From: Candidatus Methylomirabilota bacterium | Lineage (GTDB): Bacteria > Methylomirabilota > Methylomirabilia > Methylomirabilales > Methylomirabilaceae | Direction of reading: 5' to 3' | Length of the DNA: 10,773 nt | Assembly (NCBI GenBank): GCA_003105305.1 | Contig: PQAQ01000212.1 | Span: 1 to 10,773 of the forward strand | Part shown: positions 916 to 10,773 of the stretch, one piece after another | Position numbering within the stretch: the first letter of the stretch is position 1 | Layout: each line of letters starts with the position of its first letter | Translations under genes and position numbers: made by a program | Notes under the pieces: generated by a model | Database searches by the model: none | The model's input: the letters and a program-made list of their open reading frames with translations, nothing else | Told to the model about the DNA's origin: nothing

Positions 916-944
916 GCGAAACGCGAAATCTGAAATGCGAAATC
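916..944. repeat. Short direct repeats of GCGAAATC next to the palindrome
   Basis: Just after the proA stop, GCGAAAC (916-922) is followed by GCGAAATC (923-930) and a second GCGAAATC (937-944). The last copy runs into the left arm of the palindrome at 941. The copies are short, so chance or slippage could explain them. Their position beside the palindrome suggests that they belong to the same inserted element. Confidence 0.5.
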
Positions 945-985
945 CCCCCGCACCCCCCTTTTACAAAGGGGGGACTGGGGGGATT
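941..985. repeat. 45-bp perfectly symmetric palindrome with two C6/G6 blocks per arm
   Basis: The left arm (941-961) reads AAT, C6, gca, C6, TTT. The right arm (965-985) reads AAA, G6, act, G6, ATT. The 3-nt loop is TAC (962-964). 18 of 21 positions pair, and the only mismatch is the central 3x3 block. The hairpin ends 11 nt before the nadD ATG and begins 28 nt after the proA stop. There is no T-run after it, so it is not a classical intrinsic terminator. Palindromes built on CCCCCTTT...AAAGGGGG are familiar as dispersed intergenic repeats in several bacterial genomes. Assigning this one to such a family is my inference. Confidence 0.85.
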
Positions 986-996
986 TTAGGGCAGAT

Positions 997-3875: not shown

Positions 3876-3970
3876 TCCGTGTGGCGTCCGGTCTGATCAG
3901 TGATGTGAGTGAAGCGGTTATTCGATGGAGTGCAGGATCGAGGAGGACGTGAGCAAAAATTTCCAAAGAG

Positions 3971-3998
3971 ATTGACCTAAAGGGATTGACATTTAGGG
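3971..3998 (+). repeat. 14-bp tandem repeat overlapping the gap promoter -35
   Basis: ATTGACCTAAAGGG (3971-3984) is followed without a gap by ATTGACATTTAGGG (3985-3998), with 11 of 14 positions identical. The second copy contains the TTGACA -35 hexamer of the promoter. It could be a duplicated operator half-site or a relic of promoter duplication. Confidence 0.7.
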
Positions 3999-5228: not shown

Positions 5229-6416
5229 ATGGCTAAACTATGTATCGATGACCTGCAACTCGAAGGGCAGCGACTTCTGATTCGCGTCGATTTTAATGTT
5301 CCGATCGATGAGCGTGGGACAATCACTGACGACACGCGCATCCGCGCCGCGCTCCCGACAATCAGCTATGCGGTCCAACATGGGGCCAAGATCCTGCTCC
5401 TCTCTCACCTGGGCCGGCCAAAGGGCGGCCCGAACCCGAAGCTCAGCCTCGGACCGGTCGCCGGGCGGCTGGCGGCCCTGCTGGGAGGTCCGGTTGAGAT
5501 GGCCGAGGATTGCGTGGGGCCGCAGGTAAAGGCCAGAATCGACAGGATGGCGGCCGGAGATGTCCTGTTGCTCGAGAACTGCCGTTTTCATCCCGAAGAG
5601 GAAAAGAACGACGAGGCTTTCTCCGGAGCGTTGGCCGGGTTATGCGATCTGTACGTCAACGACGCCTTCGGAACGGCGCACCGCGCCCATGCCTCCACGG
5701 TCGGCGTCACGCGATTCGTGAAGCAGTCGGCATGCGGTTTTCTAATGCAGACGGAGCTCAAACAGCTCGGGATGTTACTCGATCGCCCCGCGCGCCCCTT
5801 TATCGCCATCCTCGGCGGCGCGAAGGTGTCCGACAAGATCGGTGTATTGGCCAATCTATTGCCGAAGGTGGACGGTTTTCTGATCGGCGGCGGTATGGCC
5901 TATACATTTCTGAAGGCTCAAGGGCACGAGGTAGGGAGTTCCCGGGTAGAGGCCGACGGGCTGAAGGTAGCGCAAGAGACCATGGAGCAGGCTGCACGCA
6001 TGAACGTGGCCATCCATCTGCCCAGTGACCATGTCATCGCAGAGCGGATCGACGTCAATGCGCCTACCAGGCAGGTAGACGGCAGCATTCCGGTCGGTCT
6101 GATGGGGCTTGATATCGGTCCCGCAACGATCAGCCGATTCACTCGGGAGGTGGAGCGCGCAAAAACGATCCTGTGGAACGGGCCGATGGGCGTCTTTGAG
6201 ATGAGACCGTTCCAGGCGGGGACGTTTGCGCTGGCCAAGGCGGTCGCGACCTCCGGCGCGCACTCGGTCATCGGCGGCGGCGATACGGCGGCCGCTGTCG
6301 TCCAGGCCGGGGTCGCCGAGCGGATGACCCATATCTCGACCGGAGGAGGCGCATCCCTGGAATTCTTAGAAGGGAAAGAGCTGCCGGGCATCGCCGCGCT
6401 TACGGATAAGAACTAG
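5229..6416 (+). CDS. pgk: Phosphoglycerate kinase
   Basis: Pgk transfers phosphate between 1,3-bisphosphoglycerate and ADP to give 3-phosphoglycerate and ATP. The 395-aa product has the standard bacterial length. The N-domain substrate motifs are RVDFNVPID, DDTRIRAALPTI, SHLGRPKGG and ENCRFHPEEEKND, followed by VNDAFGTAHRAHAST. The nucleotide domain shows LGGAKVSDKI, GGGMAYTFLKAQG, WNGPMGVFE, the GGGDTA loop with Asp352, and STGGGASLEFLEG. The ATG at 5229 is preferred over the GTG at 5220 because it gives the usual MAKL-type opening and has GTGGGTGA just upstream. It follows gap by 115 nt and is followed by a heptad-repeat element before tpiA. Confidence 0.97.
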   Translation: MAKLCIDDLQLEGQRLLIRVDFNVPIDERGTITDDTRIRAALPTISYAVQHGAKILLLSHLGRPKGGPNPKLSLGPVAGRLAALLGGPVEMAEDCVGPQVKARIDRMAAGDVLLLENCRFHPEEEKNDEAFSGALAGLCDLYVNDAFGTAHRAHASTVGVTRFVKQSACGFLMQTELKQLGMLLDRPARPFIAILGGAKVSDKIGVLANLLPKVDGFLIGGGMAYTFLKAQGHEVGSSRVEADGLKVAQETMEQAARMNVAIHLPSDHVIAERIDVNAPTRQVDGSIPVGLMGLDIGPATISRFTREVERAKTILWNGPMGVFEMRPFQAGTFALAKAVATSGAHSVIGGGDTAAAVVQAGVAERMTHISTGGGASLEFLEGKELPGIAALTDKN

Positions 6417-6423
6417 TGGTAAC

Positions 6424-6489
6424 AGGGTATAGTCCGAAGGGTCTTTGGAAGTATTTACCCTCAACCCTACACCCTCAACCCTATATCCC
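6424..6489. repeat. Heptad-repeat inverted element, copy 1 (pgk-tpiA spacer)
   Basis: The C-rich arm is a near-perfect 7-bp tandem array: ACCCTCA (6457-6463), ACCCTAC (6464-6470), ACCCTCA (6471-6477), ACCCTAT (6478-6484), then a partial ATCCC. The G-rich arm is degenerate, with GGG at 6425-6427 and again exactly 14 bp later at 6439-6441. GGGTATAG (6425-6432) can pair with CTATATCCC (6481-6489), allowing one bulged base. An inner hairpin, TCCGAAG/CTTTGGA around GGT (6433-6449), lies between the arms. The element ends 10 nt before the tpiA ATG. Confidence 0.8.
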
Positions 6490-6499
6490 GGATTGTGAC

Positions 6500-7258
6500 A
6501 TGCGCAGACCAGTAATTGCCGGCAACTGGAAGATGTATAAAACGCCCTCCGAGGCTGTTGTCCTGGCGAAAGGAATAGTGAAGGCGTTGTCGTCGCTCAA
6601 CGGGCCCGAGGTGGTCGTGTGCCCACCATTTGCGGCGCTGACTGCCGTTGGGCAGGTCGTGGCCGGATCGAGGATAGGCCTCGGCGCGCAGAACCTGCAT
6701 TGGGCAAAGGAAGGGGCCTATACTGGCGAGGTGTCGGCCGACATGCTCCGAGATATCGGGTGTCGCTATGTCATCGTCGGCCACTCCGAGCGGCGGCAGT
6801 ATTTCGGAGAGACCGATGAAAACGTGAATAAGAAGAGCTGCGCCGCCCTGGCAACCGGTCTGATTCCGATCGTCTGTGTGGGTGAGACCCTTGCCGAGCG
6901 GGAGGCGGGACGCGCAGATGCCGTTGTGGAGATGCAGCTTAAAGGGGCGCTGTCGGGCCTCTCGCCTGAGCAGGTACGGCGACTCATCTTTGCGTATGAG
7001 CCGGTCTGGGCCATCGGCACCGGCCAAACAGCCACGCCGATCCAGGCGGAGGAGATGCATGCGCATATCCGAAAGACGATCGCCATGCTGGTCGATGCCG
7101 AGATCGCGTCCGGTGTCCGCATCCTCTATGGAGGCAGTGTCAAGCCGGACAATGCGAAGGAGCTGCTGGACCGACCTGAGATTGACGGTGCGCTGATCGG
7201 CGGCGCAAGCCTGCAGGCTGAATCGTTTGCGGCGATCGCACGGGCCGCTACAAAATAG
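6500..7258 (+). CDS. tpiA: Triosephosphate isomerase
   Basis: TpiA interconverts dihydroxyacetone phosphate and glyceraldehyde-3-phosphate. The 252-aa product has the normal length. The catalytic residues fall at the textbook positions: Lys11 in AGNWKMYK, His95 in [12 protein letters not shown] and Glu167 in [10 protein letters not shown]. The phosphate-binding loop is LYGGSVKP, followed by [11 protein letters not shown]. The frame stays open upstream to a GTG at 6416, but that would translate the heptad repeat as an aberrant N-terminal extension. The ATG at 6500 gives the conserved [13 protein letters not shown] opening. No clear Shine-Dalgarno sequence precedes this ATG; the upstream bases are the repeat's C-rich arm and GGATTGTGAC. 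The gap-pgk-tpiA-secG order is common in bacteria. Confidence 0.97.
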
Positions 7259-7335
7259 AGGGTACGGGGTAGAGGGTAAAGAGTTCAGAACGGACCTTTG
7301 CGGTTCTAAACCCTAACCCCCAGACCCCAAACCCT
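7258..7335. repeat. Heptad-repeat inverted element, copy 2 (tpiA-secG spacer)
   Basis: The G-rich arm has three exact heptads: GAGGGTA (7258-7264), CGGGGTA (7265-7271) and GAGGGTA (7272-7278). The C-rich arm has four: AAACCCT (7308-7314), AACCCCC (7315-7321), AGACCCC (7322-7328) and AAACCCT (7329-7335). Between them AGAAC (7287-7291) pairs with GTTCT (7303-7307), leaving an 11-nt loop. The element starts on the last base of the tpiA stop and ends 19 nt before the secG ATG. There is no T-run after the arm. Confidence 0.85.
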
Positions 7336-7354
7336 GTCTTTTGAGGAGGTTTAG

Positions 7355-7729
7355 ATGGTTATTGCGCTTTCCATCGTACATCTGCTTATTGCAATCGTCC
7401 TTATCGTGATTGTGCTTCTCCAGAGCGGCAAAGGCGCCGACATTGGCGCCGCGTTCGGCGGCGGATCGAGTCAGACCCTCTTTGGCGGACGCGGCGCCGC
7501 GACCTTCTTGAGCAAGCTGACGCTGGCAGCCGCTGTGCTCTTTATGGTTTCATCTCTTATTCTCACCATCATTGCAGAGCGCTCGGGGAGCTCCTCGGTC
7601 ATCACAGAGGAGCGGGTCAGGCAGACTGCTCCAGCCCAAGCCCCGGTTCCTCCAGCCGGCGCTCCGGCGCCATCGACATCTCCAGCCGAACCGACGCCGC
7701 CGGCGCAGGTCCCTTCAGCCGCCAAGTAA
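7355..7729 (+). CDS. secG: Preprotein translocase subunit SecG
   Basis: SecG is the small accessory subunit of the SecYEG channel in the cytoplasmic membrane. The 124-aa product has the family pattern: a first membrane helix (about residues 3-22, rich in Ile, Val and Leu), then LLQSGKGADIGAAFGGG and SSQTLFGGRGAATFLSK. A second membrane helix follows (about residues 51-71, LTLAAAVLFMVSSLILTII). The C-terminal 35 or so residues form a Pro/Ala-rich tail, common but variable in SecG. The start has the strongest Shine-Dalgarno sequence of the cluster, GAGGAGGT (7343-7350), 4 nt from the ATG. It follows tpiA, as in many genomes, and ends 9 nt before the next gene, so that gene is likely translated from the same message. 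Confidence 0.95.
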   Translation: MVIALSIVHLLIAIVLIVIVLLQSGKGADIGAAFGGGSSQTLFGGRGAATFLSKLTLAAAVLFMVSSLILTIIAERSGSSSVITEERVRQTAPAQAPVPPAGAPAPSTSPAEPTPPAQVPSAAK

Positions 7730-7738
7730 CAAGAACTC

Positions 7739-8071
7739 ATGTCCCGCTTGCGCAGCGCCCTCGCCCACGCGTTCGCACTGAGCGGGCAAGACAGCCGGCT
7801 TGAGGCGGACGATCTCGCCTTGCTGGATCGGTTCGCCCGTCTGCTCGGCGACCGCGGTCTTACGACGCCTGCTATATTCCTGGTGGAGTCTCTTGTGCCC
7901 CTCGGTTTCCTTGCGAGTCAGCTGATCCATGCCCTGACGCCAATCATGGGCATGGTGGCTCCTCCGGCCGACATTGAACGGCTTGCGCGTATCCTGGAAC
8001 GACGGGACGTTCCGGCCGTCTTTGTCGACAGGCTCCAACGTTTGGAGGAGGGACAGCGTCGTGAGTCGTGA
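7739..8071 (+). CDS. Unrecognised 110-aa protein between secG and the MutL-like gene
   Basis: I cannot name this protein. It begins 9 nt after the secG stop and ends 11 nt inside the MutL-like gene, so it is probably part of a coupled unit. No strong ribosome-binding site precedes its ATG. The protein looks real: a charged N-terminal helix with LLDRFARLLGDRGL, a central hydrophobic segment TPAIFLVESLVPLGFLASQ (about residues 42-61), and HALTPIMGMV. A C-terminal amphipathic helix rich in Leu, Arg and Glu follows (ADIERLARILERR and VDRLQRLEE). The hydrophobic part is too broken by Pro, Glu and Gln to be a confident membrane span; a soluble helical protein or a peripheral membrane protein is possible. 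Base composition matches its neighbours. Its placement suggests a function tied to the MutL-like protein, which is inference. Confidence 0.8.
   Translation: MSRLRSALAHAFALSGQDSRLEADDLALLDRFARLLGDRGLTTPAIFLVESLVPLGFLASQLIHALTPIMGMVAPPADIERLARILERRDVPAVFVDRLQRLEEGQRRES
8044..8053 (+). promoter_or_regulatory. Strong ribosome-binding site that sets the MutL-like start
   Basis: GGAGGAGGGA lies 7 nt before the GTG at 8061, inside the 3' end of the 110-aa gene. This selects 8061 over a TTG at 7974, which lies within the upstream gene, and over the ATG at 8073. Confidence 0.8.
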
Positions 8072-9854
8072 GATGAGCGCGATCCTCGCGACCGACTGCG
8101 GGAGCACGACCACCAAGGCGATCCTGATCGAGTGGAAAGGCAACGAATACCGCCAGACCTTCCGCGGCGAGTCCCCGACCACCGTCGAGGCGCCGTTCGA
8201 TGATGTCACCCGCGGGGTGTTGAACGCCATTCAGGAGGTCGAGGAGCTGTCCGGACGGACGATCCTGGACGGCGAAAAGATCCTGACGCCCGCCGAGGAG
8301 GGGCGCGGCGTTGATCTCTACGTGTCGACAAGCAGCGCCGGCGGCGGGCTCCAGATGATGGTGGCGGGCGTGGTCACAGCTATGACTGCCGAGAGCGCCC
8401 AACGATGCGCCCTTGGCGCCGGCGCTATCGTCATGGACGTCCTGGCCGGCAACGACGGCCGGGCGGCGCATGAGAAGATCGAGCGTATTCGAGTCCTGAG
8501 GCCCGATATGATCCTGCTGTCCGGCGGCACCGACGGCGGGACGATCTCGCACGTCGTGGAGCTGGCGGAGTTCATTCGGGCGGCCGATCCGAAGCCCAGG
8601 CTTGGCGGCAGTTTCAAGCTGCCGGTCATCTTTGCCGGAAATAAAGATGCGCGGGGCCGGATTCGGGAGATCCTGGGCGACCGGACGGCCCTCGTTATGA
8701 CCGACAACATTCGACCGATCCTCGAGCGAGAGAATCTCGGGCCGGCCCGTCACACGATCCATGATCTGTTTCTTGAGCATGTCATGGCCCAGGCGCCCGG
8801 GTACGGTAAACTCATGGGGTGGACGGGCGCGCCGATCATGCCGACGCCGGCCGCCGTCGGCCTCATTATGGAACAAGCGGCAAAGGCGCAACAGTTGAAC
8901 CTGCTGGGCGTAGACATCGGCGGCGCCACAACCGATGTCTTTTCGGTGGTGGATGGGCAATTCACCCGGACTGTCAGCGCCAATCTGGGGATGAGTTACA
9001 GCGTGAGCAATGTCCTGGCTGAGGCCGGCATTGAGAAGATTGAGCGCTGGCTGGTTGAGCCGATCGCCGAGCAGGAGCTACGGAATCGGATCAAGAATAA
9101 GATGATTCGCCCCACCACCATCCCGCAGACACTCGCGGATCTCGCCCTGGAGCAGGCGATCTCGCGCGAGGCGCTGCGCCTGGCCTTTGACCAGCATAAG
9201 GCGCTGGCCGTCAGCCTGAAGGGGGTCCAGCAGGAACGCACCATCGCAGACGCCTTCGAGCAGGAAGAGGGGGGGAAAAGTCTCATCGATCTGTACACAA
9301 TTGACCTGATTATCGGGAGCGGCGGGATCCTGTCTCATGCGCCGCGCCGCGTTCAGGCGATGATGATGATGATCGATGCCTACCAGCCGCTTGGACTGAC
9401 GCAACTAGCCGTGGACAGCATCTTTATGATGCCGCACCTCGGCGTACTGTCCCAGGTCAATGAGCGAGCCGCCACGGAGGTATTCCTGAAGGATTGCCTG
9501 GTGCCGTTGGGCAGTTGTCTGGCGGCCGACGGGAAGGCGAAGCGCGGCGAGTCGTGTTTCGCGTATACTATTCGATTTGCGGATGGTCGGCACGCCGAGG
9601 GTGCGCTTCGCTTTGGCGAGATCCTTCGTCTCGATCTTCCATCCGGAGCAGAGGCCGAACTCCATGCGGAACCGTCGAAGGGCTTTGATCTGGGCGCCGG
9701 CAAAGGAAAGGCGGTTACGCGGAAGGTCAAAGGCGGTGTCGTTGGACTGATCTTAGATGCCAGGGGACGGCCGCTCGACCTTGCGGAGAATGAATCGGAA
9801 CGGGCCGCCCAACTGCGCGTCTGGGCCGGAGCGATGGATCTGTATCCGACATAG
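8061..9854 (+). CDS. MutL/GlmL-family ASKHA ATPase (glutamate mutase-associated family), orphan
   Basis: This 597-aa protein belongs to the family of MutL/GlmL, the ATPase encoded between the two subunits of B12-dependent glutamate mutase and thought to support or reactivate that enzyme. It is unrelated to the mismatch-repair MutL. The actin-like fold motifs are visible: phosphate-1 loop LATDCGSTTTKAIL (Asp12), phosphate-2 loop LLGVDIGGATTDVFSV (Asp285) and an adenosine-type motif GSGGILSH (from residue 419). Other family-like blocks are STSSAGGGLQMMVAG, LLSGGTDGGT, MPTPAAVGLIME and MMPHLGVLS. The GTG at 8061 has a strong ribosome-binding site 7 nt upstream and overlaps the previous gene by 11 nt. 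No glutamate mutase subunit or other B12 mutase is in the window, so its client is unknown. A heptad-repeat element follows it. Confidence 0.88.
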   Translation: MSREMSAILATDCGSTTTKAILIEWKGNEYRQTFRGESPTTVEAPFDDVTRGVLNAIQEVEELSGRTILDGEKILTPAEEGRGVDLYVSTSSAGGGLQMMVAGVVTAMTAESAQRCALGAGAIVMDVLAGNDGRAAHEKIERIRVLRPDMILLSGGTDGGTISHVVELAEFIRAADPKPRLGGSFKLPVIFAGNKDARGRIREILGDRTALVMTDNIRPILERENLGPARHTIHDLFLEHVMAQAPGYGKLMGWTGAPIMPTPAAVGLIMEQAAKAQQLNLLGVDIGGATTDVFSVVDGQFTRTVSANLGMSYSVSNVLAEAGIEKIERWLVEPIAEQELRNRIKNKMIRPTTIPQTLADLALEQAISREALRLAFDQHKALAVSLKGVQQERTIADAFEQEEGGKSLIDLYTIDLIIGSGGILSHAPRRVQAMMMMIDAYQPLGLTQLAVDSIFMMPHLGVLSQVNERAATEVFLKDCLVPLGSCLAADGKAKRGESCFAYTIRFADGRHAEGALRFGEILRLDLPSGAEAELHAEPSKGFDLGAGKGKAVTRKVKGGVVGLILDARGRPLDLAENESERAAQLRVWAGAMDLYPT

Positions 9855-9858
9855 GAGA

Positions 9859-9947
9859 AAGGGTATGGGGTATAGGGTTTGGGGTTTGAAGAAAAGACCT
9901 ATTGAGTATCTTTTACCCTAAACCCCAGACCCTAACCCCCAACCCCC
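9859..9947. repeat. Heptad-repeat inverted element, copy 3 (after the MutL-like gene)
   Basis: The G-rich arm is AAGGGTA (9859-9865), TGGGGTA (9866-9872), TAGGGTT (9873-9879), TGGGGTT (9880-9886). The C-rich arm is TTACCCT (9913-9919), AAACCCC (9920-9926), AGACCCT (9927-9933), AACCCCC (9934-9940), AACCCCC (9941-9947). The inner stem AAAAGA (9892-9897) pairs with TCTTTT (9909-9914) around an 11-nt loop, the same loop size as copy 2. This is the most complete copy. The element begins 4 nt after the stop of the MutL-like gene and ends 9 nt before the next ATG. Confidence 0.88.
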
Positions 9948-9956
9948 GTTAAAGAG

Positions 9957-10773
9957 ATGGCTCATTCGTATACGCCCGGCTTACGCACGGCGCCACAGAC
10001 CGTAGTCCGGAAGCGGCGGATCCTGCCGATCCCCGGGCGGGTGCTTGTTCATGATGGTCAGGCGGTGACGGCGACCACAGTGATCGCTCAGACCGAGCTG
10101 CCGGGCAAGGTTCATGCGGTCAATGTGGTGAATCTGTTGGGGATCGTCCCCCAGGAGATCCGGCGCTACATGCTGAAGCGGGCGGGTGATGCGGTCAGCT
10201 CTGGTGAGCCGCTGGCCGAGAACCGGCCCGTTTTCAAGTGGCTGAAGACCCAGGTTCCTTCCCCGATCACCGGAACAATCGAGACCGTGTCCGAGGTGAC
10301 CGGACAGGTATTTTTGAGAGAGCCGCCCAAACCTCTGGCCCTTACAGCCTATCTTGACGGCCATGTGGTTGAGACGTTTCCGGGGGAGGGGGCGACTGTC
10401 GAGACGGCGTGCAGTCTGGTGCAGGGAATCTTCGGCATCGGCGGTGAGGCGGTCGGAACGATTGCAGTCGGCGTCGACAATCGCGAAGACGAACTGACGC
10501 CGGAGCGGATTACCGACGCGCACCGCGGGACGATCCTTGTGGGCGGCTCGCTGATCGGTCGTGACGGTATCGCCAGGGCGAAGCAGGCGGGCGCGGCCGC
10601 GGTCGTCGTCGGCGGCATCCACGATCTCGATCTGAGATTTCTCCTCGGGCGGGACCTTGGTGTGGCCATTACCGGAACCGAACAGATTGGGTTTACGTTG
10701 ATCATCACCGAAGGGTTTGGTCGTATTGCGATGGCCAAGCGAACGTTCGAACTGCTGTCCTCCAAGGTCGGTC
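9957..10773 (+). CDS. Unrecognised protein with a barrel-sandwich-like N-terminus, 3' end cut off by the window
   Basis: The frame is open from the ATG at 9957 to the end of the window, giving 272 complete codons and no stop. I do not recognise a named family. Residues 21-45 read RILPIPGRVLVHDGQAVTA, like the PGxVxVxxGxxV turn of lipoyl/barrel-sandwich folds. A second such pattern follows: KRAGDAVSSGEPLAEN (74-89) then VPSPITGTIETVSEVTG (100-116). No biotinyl or lipoyl lysine motif is seen. The later part alternates beta and alpha with glycine-rich strands: GTILVGGSLIGRDGIARAKQ, AAAVVVGGIHDLDL and VAITGTEQIGFTLIITEGFG. It follows the MutL-like gene by 102 nt, filled mostly by a heptad-repeat element. 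The ribosome-binding site is weak (AAAGAG directly before the ATG). A role together with the MutL-like protein is inferred from position only. Confidence 0.82.
   Translation, partial: MAHSYTPGLRTAPQTVVRKRRILPIPGRVLVHDGQAVTATTVIAQTELPGKVHAVNVVNLLGIVPQEIRRYMLKRAGDAVSSGEPLAENRPVFKWLKTQVPSPITGTIETVSEVTGQVFLREPPKPLALTAYLDGHVVETFPGEGATVETACSLVQGIFGIGGEAVGTIAVGVDNREDELTPERITDAHRGTILVGGSLIGRDGIARAKQAGAAAVVVGGIHDLDLRFLLGRDLGVAITGTEQIGFTLIITEGFGRIAMAKRTFELLSSKVG

Follow-up and report, generated by a model that had tools for sequence, protein, structure and literature searches.

Why should the short gaps between the aligned genes of a bacterial operon be filled with inverted arrays of 7-bp units? The question is raised by a stretch of 10,773 nucleotides from a Candidatus Methylomirabilota bacterium (contig PQAQ01000212.1, here contig C212 of genome G000, a 2.12-Mb draft that is 80% complete); 'the window' refers to this whole stretch. 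All 13 genes called in it, which include proA, nadD, gapdh, pgk, tpiA, secG, a glmL-like gene and an unnamed downstream gene (dn), lie on the plus strand. Genes were called with home-made callers, with a by-eye check on the window only. An initial annotation had proposed that three spacers, pgk–tpiA (element A), tpiA–secG (element B) and glmL–dn (element C), carry paired G-rich and C-rich arms on a period of seven. Such arms were present in all three gaps, although the G-rich arm of element A is degenerate, with two GGG tracts 14 nt apart; several orthologs of this element have fuller G-arms. An element consists of two inverted arrays of 7-bp units around a short inner segment and reaches, between mostly co-directional genes, from just past one stop codon to a little short of the following start. 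These elements are real and not unique, being of a known but unexplained kind. Their layout has already been described; the new part is turnover at orthologous operon junctions, where units of many dialects replace one another at a fixed period. Site and period are inherited, and sequence mostly is not.

Lag scans singled out seven as the period. Across lags 2–14, lag 7 scored highest in the window (16), followed by its double, lag 14 (14); in one intragenic stretch (10587–10633), lag 6 reached 13. The window holds six lag-7 segments with a score of at least 11, whereas 300 dinucleotide shuffles averaged 0.037 and never exceeded 1. A complete congener, G006, contained 40 lag-7 segments (score ≥12) in 400 kb versus 2 after shuffling; the next lags were 14 (15 segments) and 21 (12), both multiples of seven, followed by 9 (10). 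Over 800 kb of this genome (score ≥11), 69 lag-7 segments were intergenic and 20 coding, compared with 5 intergenic and 59 coding for lags 6, 9 and 12 together. Counting only arrays that have an inverted partner no more than 80 nt away, these 800 kb held 16 at lag 7 and at most one at any other lag from 4 to 13; the corresponding counts in 460 kb of G043, a 0.7-Mb Patescibacteria genome, were 25 and 0.

Scanning G000 with ACCCYNNACCCYNNACCCY returned 65 matches at 36 separate places (our own count), three of which are the elements of the window, compared with 5 for the reversed control, bearing out the proposal of a genome-wide, mostly intergenic family. Its expected presence in relatives also held: the pattern matched in all 15 genomes searched in the genus, that of the window included, with 6 to 135 matches per genome (reversed controls, 0 to 38), although G005, at 6 against 5 in its control, has no real excess. 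Matches occurred in 30 of 41 genomes overall; counts dropped in other families of the order, and six genomes of the class's other family had zero matches to the pattern. Heptad arrays (score ≥10) occupied 58 of 600 co-directional gaps in the 800 kb of G006, 2 of 66 convergent gaps and 0 of 63 divergent gaps. They were present in 30 of its 121 co-directional gaps of 61–130 nt, about a quarter, so that a sizeable share of the intra-operon DNA there bears the mark of their driving process. Within co-directional gaps, the G-arm starts a median of 5 nt past the upstream stop codon in G000 (n = 17) and 10.5 nt in G006 (n = 30), and the C-arm ends a median of 17.5 nt (n = 22) and 25 nt (n = 25), respectively, before the next start. 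Of 123 loosely defined G006 arms, 64 fell in coding sequence or at an edge and were left unplaced. That the G-rich arm always lies 5′ of the genes is all but uninformative, since an inverted pair is G-first whichever strand is read; the testable part is G-first against C-first. Neighbouring arms within 110 nt (G000 loci and the 800-kb sample of G006) were G-first in 29 cases and C-first in 1, and a looser count with overlapping arm combinations gave 56 versus 9.

Unit anatomy was read only from units unused in array detection, as a guard against detection bias. Across the genus (n = 176), successive positions of the GGGT-dialect unit were A in 89%, C in 99%, C in 95%, C in 99%, T in 73% (C in 19%) and A in 73%, with a loose seventh base (A 30, C 26, G 7 and T 36%). 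The likeness to a telomere-type unit is a coincidence of this loose base, and a eukaryotic-type telomere repeat (uniform TTTAGGG at replicon ends) is ruled out, since the seventh base varies and the elements lie between genes. The TCAGC dialect was 87–100% conserved (n = 23) and the GTTCA dialect 73–96% (n = 52), each with two loose bases. A conserved core of 5–6 bases accompanied by 1–2 loose bases is thus established for the GGGT dialect; the other dialects are represented by few units.

Arm covariation, which the annotation had put forward as a test, was absent. In G000, G006, G041 and G042 (19, 10, 10 and 15 elements), own arms were no more alike than swapped arms in any of the four genomes (p = 0.78, 0.56, 1.0 and 0.53), and in an earlier, uncleaned comparison of G043 with 9 rows, own arms fell below swapped ones in likeness. 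The variable bases of neighbouring units coincided more often than expected in G000 (4 of 500 shuffles reached the value) and in a pool of G000 and G006 that mixes two genomes (0 of 500), and no more often than in shuffled units in G006, G041 and G042 alone (105, 500 and 356 of 500). The missing own-arm excess and the patchy sharing between neighbours speak against a covarying stem and against the idea that recent slippage alone produced the arrays; together, the unit and arm tests favour retention of each unit on account of its core. Heptads might otherwise be a neutral by-product of replication, with slippage in 7-nt steps extending an array and fold-back copying creating the inverted arm, in gaps that tolerate what genes do not. 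A polymerase-footprint origin of heptamers has been suggested before (discussed in the portion of PMC4692102 covered here), unit number varies between orthologs, and the sharing seen in G000 and in the pooled set would agree with such an origin. However, fold-back would make own arms alike, the excess of sharing is absent from three genomes taken alone, conserved cores stand beside loose bases, and the GGGT core recurs across phyla, all of which render this explanation improbable.

The GGGT type, taken in the annotation for a single sequence family, is one among many period-7 dialects. A single genome can carry many such unit dialects, rarely of period 8: G006 holds TAGGGTN, TCAGCNN and AGGCTGA arrays as well as hybrids with different units per arm, and at least five dialects were distinguished by eye in G043. 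At three places (L098:12141, L100:18822 and L068:19801), the two arms are different, non-complementary heptads, each clean alone. After removal of the G-rich dialects, there was no support for a purine-first or keto-first polarity common to all dialects. The period thus belongs to the class and not to one sequence, the units look as if they are read one by one, and the arms do not form a covarying stem. GGGTNTA arms with four G-tracts match the G-quadruplex (G4) pattern, and similar units form G4 in vitro (PMC4692102, in the portion covered here), so the G-rich arm might be the functional part of a DNA G4 element, a role already considered for the Xanthomonas and Nostoc repeats. As a general function, G4 is contradicted by the non-G dialects: the same junctions in congeners hold arrays without G-tracts (TCAGCNN and GTTCANN), leaving such an element very improbable.

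Orthologous junctions showed sequence exchange at a constant period. The initial annotation had noted that the arms keep phase while individual bases drift; that holds, and at several orthologous gaps the effect is stronger, the whole unit being replaced while the period stays. Dialects were labelled by eye, and changes were counted by Fitch parsimony on a four-protein tree in which several nodes are weak (49–65). The dn gene was matched in each of the genus's 15 genomes. At glmL–dn, these genomes carry six unit types and one remnant (7 states), and the 9 Fitch steps (shuffled mean 9.4; 464 of 1,000 shuffles as low) revealed no phylogenetic signal; the well-supported sister pairs G007/G012 and G009/G013 differ in unit. 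At tpiA–secG, the 14 genomes comprise 8 with the GGGT dialect, 1 with TCAGC, 3 with GTTCA and 2 with a short gap (5 steps, shuffled mean 5.7; 241 of 1,000 as low), and pgk–tpiA required 3 steps against a shuffled mean of 2.8. Occupancy itself was strongly retained. Among 32 gaps common to at least 3 of 12 genomes, with gaps above 400 nt excluded, the probability of an array in a second genome given an array in the same gap of the first was 0.64 versus 0.19 (0 of 2,000 within-genome shuffles), and when both gaps measured 60–400 nt, co-occurrence was 0.84 versus 0.21. The unit was shared by 61 of 180 same-gap pairs, compared with 329 of 1,593 unrelated-gap pairs and 52 of 180 pairs from one genome. 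In other congeners, several array-bearing gaps measure no more than −4 to 30 nt.

Arrays also leave traces as they decay. In G005, the genome with the remnant, the glmL-like protein now ends in a translated C-arm (..DLYPTYTLSPNP; locus L253). With this leftover arm read as its final codons, the protein shows that a gene can be lengthened by a decaying array. The end of the protein was readable in ten further genomes and not in four; in these ten, the stop lies 1–3 residues past a conserved ..LY, and the array begins within about 10 bases of the protein's end. At the gapdh–pgk gap, G001, G005, G009 and G013 have other repeats (..GTCATTGCGAGG..), and G007, G010 and G012 have heptad arrays. We found no description of unit replacement at orthologous junctions in the open-licence literature, which misses most subscription journals. 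With different sequences re-occupying the same junctions, the long-standing puzzle of a seven-base period becomes testable.

The paired GGGTNTA unit extends far beyond the genus. A scan for TAGGGTNTAGGGT, 15–40 nt and ACCCTANACCCTA over genome_contigs (84,980 species, one genome each) recovered 76 stretches, against about 0.03 expected by chance (our own arithmetic, with even composition assumed), in at least 13 phyla by record title. Titles include Cyanobacteria, Patescibacteria, Acidobacteriota (Pyrinomonadaceae), Elusimicrobia, Planctomycetes, Bacteroidetes, Chloroflexi, Gemmatimonadetes, Kapaibacteria, Armatimonadetes, Omnitrophota, Desulfobacterales and Methylomirabilota; single phylum labels may be wrong, because most of the records are metagenome-assembled genomes. 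The 76 loci were chosen by the pattern itself, and together with those of G041–G043 they yielded 112 distinct elements with flanks. Of these multi-phylum elements, 57 are co-directional, 18 convergent, 7 divergent and 1 inside an open reading frame (ORF); a further 15 lie at contig edges, and for 14 the nearest called gene is over 250 nt away. The same loci contain 188 co-directional, 38 convergent and 54 divergent gaps of 60–400 nt. Arrays with an inverted partner in these loci, again picked by a period-7 pattern, were found 104 times at lag 7, 12 times at lag 8 and 0–2 times at each other lag from 4 to 13. With the GGGT dialect masked, the 76 loci (470 kb) still contained 96 lag-7 segments (score ≥12) versus 0 shuffled, and 29 at lag 8. 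The trait is nevertheless patchy, since relatives at order and class level that lack the GGGT dialect contained, in 154 kb, one lag-7 segment (score ≥11; 0 shuffled), ruling out period 7 as a universal property; 74 kb of G026 and G028 contained 5, versus 1 shuffled.

The position of the elements, mostly between co-directional genes and shortly past stop codons, would suit an RNA element, an intercistronic mRNA hairpin serving as terminator, attenuator or 3′-end stabilizer. Elements B and C fold significantly on both strands (z = −2.83/−4.68 and −5.79/−6.05, respectively), making two of the three window elements significant, and T is moderately enriched a few bases past the C-arm. The RNA fold of element A was no better than that of shuffles (z = +0.26 sense, −1.15 antisense). 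Comparing sense with antisense folding is a clean test, because an inverted element is alike on both strands save for G-U against A-C. Sense-strand folding was not better in 57 multi-phylum elements (−41.4 versus −42.7 kcal/mol antisense, p = 0.056, in the wrong direction) or in 32 Methylomirabilis elements (−39.8 versus −40.7 antisense, p = 0.28). The sense-strand comparison and the lack of covarying arms gave no sign of selection on the mRNA strand. None of the seven terminator-like sites in the window falls on an element, and their number equals that of shuffles (mean 7.6), which eliminates an intrinsic terminator. No Rfam family scored above its gathering threshold in the window; there were four sub-threshold matches, three of microRNA-type hairpin models to elements B and C and one of a plant small nucleolar RNA model elsewhere. 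An RNA function is accordingly quite improbable.

We next weigh how arrays reach and leave junctions. Inner segments of different elements were alike (score ≥12) in 27 of 741 pairs in G041, 18 of 171 in G042 and 3 of 28 in G043, with 0 in shuffles in each case, and an ordered 24-nt arm block of G043 recurs at six places with at most two mismatches. The common inner segments and this recurring block indicate that dispersal as units happens in these genomes. Across dialects, likeness of inner segments was weak in G041 (36 of 572 pairs versus 3 shuffled) and did not exceed chance in G043 (2 of 119 pairs versus 2). On the evidence of period, placement between genes, unit anatomy, dispersal and turnover, we tentatively favour, with a little less than even confidence, the view that the elements are non-autonomous, fast-turnover palindromes of a mobile type, which come in many dialects, are recognized unit by unit and dwell at junctions. 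Something would read the array unit by unit, as the conserved core and loose bases of the units suggest; specifically, a family of related, non-identical factors may recognize the core once per 7 bp. The elements would be short-lived occupants that come in, shed parts and give way to others built on another core; although the turnover is observed, this route is a proposal. Junction and 7-bp layout would persist through each replacement. A host function is possible but not needed to explain the data. Should they prove mobile, the elements would constitute a large class for which no enzyme is known.

Several observations weigh against this view. Retention of sites would fit selection for function too. 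Turnover is not seen everywhere, since pgk–tpiA keeps its unit, 9 of 12 labelled genomes having the GGGT dialect and 3 a short gap. Cores other than those of GGGT and TCAGC rest on 13–52 units, and that of GTTCA reaches just the 73–96% conservation given above. In the window's own genus, inner segments were unlike within Methylomirabilis genomes (0 of 253 pairs in G006, 0 of 120 in G000, and 0 of 75 in G007, G009, G010 and G013 together), which gives no sign of copying as a unit there. Some orthologs at pgk–tpiA do have similar inner segments by eye (G000/G006/G010 and G004/G007). A by-eye look revealed no target-site duplication or clean insertion boundary. Among eight genomes searched, all of them carriers, Y1_Tnp was absent from G009, which has 135 pattern matches, and from G041; RVT_1 was absent from G000 (80% complete) and G041; and RHH_1 was found in seven and absent from G043, other RHH families not being searched. 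A Y1 transposase, reverse transcriptase or RHH_1 protein as common agent is unsupported on these grounds, none being present in all eight, with other transposases outside the search. REP/REPIN sequences with their RAYT transposases are dispersed intergenic palindromes of which a genome can hold several families; we know of none with 7-bp arrays, and they differ from the present elements in that the Y1 transposase is missing from the two carriers G009 and G041. The STRR sequences of cyanobacteria are short tandem heptamers.

Two features of G043 were also noted. Six reverse-transcriptase domain matches (locus L291 and five other places) are many for 0.7 Mb. A heptad family at six places (L246:565, L247:8062, L300, L308, L310 and L311) adjoins a hairpin leader on the minus strand, CTTTTRC..GYAAAAG-like and varied between copies, with GGAG in the loop in two of six; the leader ends at CAT, the start codon of a gene called 19–21 nt away, and the hairpin could be a shared 5′ leader.

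Alternatively, the arrays could be selected by the host, with junctions occupied because an oligomerizing DNA-binding protein is needed there and the sequence following whichever paralogue is in use. A core with loose bases is compatible with one protein dimer per 7 bp, an arrangement for which the ribbon-helix-helix (RHH) protein ω/ParB, acting at parS of plasmid pSM19035, offers a model: in the portion of PMC9499535 covered here, 7-bp repeats are unspaced and fixed in packing, lie in direct or inverted order, bind one dimer per unit and give high affinity only with at least two units. The same portion describes a WATCACW unit in a plasmid partition site with mixed orders and mentions no inner segment, differing in these respects from our elements; G043, a carrier genome, also lacks an RHH_1 match. 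Strong retention of junctions agrees with host selection, as do the 8–14 RHH_1 domains in each of the five Methylomirabilis genomes searched. Conversely, G043 combines at least five dialects with zero RHH_1 domains, and G041 and G042 have one each, within a search limited to that RHH family; junctions can also be short or empty, in 3 of 12 labelled genomes at pgk–tpiA and 2 of 14 at tpiA–secG. Host selection is possible, if unlikely; if it applied, the arrays would be a junction signal with exchangeable sequence. Our order of preference therefore runs from mobile-type palindromes through host selection, slippage and RNA to G4. A broader proposal, which is rather unlikely to hold, is that undescribed machinery in more than ten phyla, including that of the 0.7-Mb Patescibacteria genome, reads a 5–6-bp core every 7 bp at junctions, where it would write, spread or exchange inverted arrays; the site and a 7-bp ruler would then be inherited, and the sequence would not.

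The annotation knew of no named bacterial element with this layout, but such layouts are in print, as paired convergent G-rich heptamers in Xanthomonas (PMC4692102) and as paired tandem hepta- and octanucleotide sites in Geobacter (PMC2700814); statements on both papers refer to the portions covered here. Rehm 2015 (PMC4692102) reported heptameric GGGAATC and GGGGA(C/T)T repeats in Xanthomonas and Nostoc, with 186 and 183 repeats and 70 and 75 convergent pairs in Xanthomonas. There, 89–93% of heptamers were intergenic, mostly between aligned ORFs (7–8% divergent), with the G-rich repeat soon past a stop codon; 83% occupied the same gene context in sister species, with varying length, and positions 1–4 and 6 of the GGGAATC unit were conserved and two variable. 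A heptamer excess in bacterial genomes has been noted, without accepted cause, since at least 2007 (cited in PMC4692102). Our elements resemble these repeats in period, in five conserved and two variable positions, in close convergent pairs and in intergenic placement; the shared heptad layout extends to aligned ORFs, rarity between divergent ORFs and a G-arm beside the stop codon. They differ in unit, GGGNATC or GGGGAYT there as opposed to GGGTNTA and several non-G dialects here, and the covered portion of that paper does not describe unit replacement at orthologous junctions.

The 2009 genome paper on Geobacter metallireducens listed tandem hepta- and octanucleotide 'putative global regulator binding sites' in several classes per genome (PMC2700814, in part). 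Like our elements, these sites are tandem 7- or 8-nt repeats, mostly in opposite-strand pairs at variable distance; here, inner length varies, and a minor period-8 class occurs in the multi-phylum loci. Unlike ours, they have other consensus sequences and were read as regulator sites, with no turnover analysis in the part of the paper covered. TAACTGA direct repeats in Beggiatoaceae, cyanobacteria and Bacteroidetes (MacGregor 2015, PMC4679880, in part) are likewise intergenic 7-nt arrays in distant phyla; they differ in being direct, with one indirect repeat, and in lying mostly just upstream of start codons.

Table 1 Coordinates of the arrays and flanking genes in the window
Feature	Position	Strand	Remarks
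Element A, degenerate G-rich arm	6425..6442		GGG at 6425 and 6439, in phase; begins 8 nt past the pgk stop codon
Element A, inner segment	6443..6456		Within a stretch alike, by eye, in G000, G006 and G010 (..AGGGTCTTTGRA..)
Element A, C-rich arm	6457..6489		ACCCTNN, period 7
Element B, G-rich arm	7259..7284		Begins directly past the tpiA stop codon
Element B, inner segment, hairpin-capable	7285..7309
Element B, C-rich arm	7310..7335		Ends just upstream of the secG ribosome-binding region
Element C, G-rich arm	9860..9885		5 nt past the stop codon of the glmL-like gene
Element C, inner segment, hairpin-capable	9886..9914
Element C, C-rich arm	9915..9947
Further period-7 array, GCGAAAT	916..943		proA–nadD gap; adjoins C6/G6 palindrome (940–986); absent from the initial annotation
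pgk (phosphoglycerate kinase)	5229..6416	+	Sole NCBIfam match is a fused pgk/tpi model, under curated cut-off
tpiA (triose-phosphate isomerase)	6500..7258	+	Stop codon 7256–7258
secG	7355..7729	+
glmL/MutL-like gene	8061..9854	+	Matches under curated cut-offs
dn gene, downstream	9957..10773	+	Without NCBIfam match; runs off the window

The proA–nadD gap, which holds the GCGAAAT array, contains other heptads in G009 and G013. The C6/G6 palindrome that this array abuts (AAATCCCCCC..GGGGGGATTT; array and palindrome together within window 916–990) has similar counterparts in G004 and G006, where they occupy this gap, and in G010, where the gap is a different one. It recalls the intergenic C-tract/G-tract motifs that have been investigated as intrastrand triplex repeats (PMC4666352, in the portion covered here). 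Within the locus, tpiA (6500–7258) is 82% identical to its G003 counterpart and the downstream gene (9957–10772) 96%, a difference that suggests recombination between congeners inside the locus. Upstream of the gapdh gene, window positions 3965–3998 hold a 14-nt direct repeat (ATTGACCTAAAGGG/ATTGACATTTAGGG).

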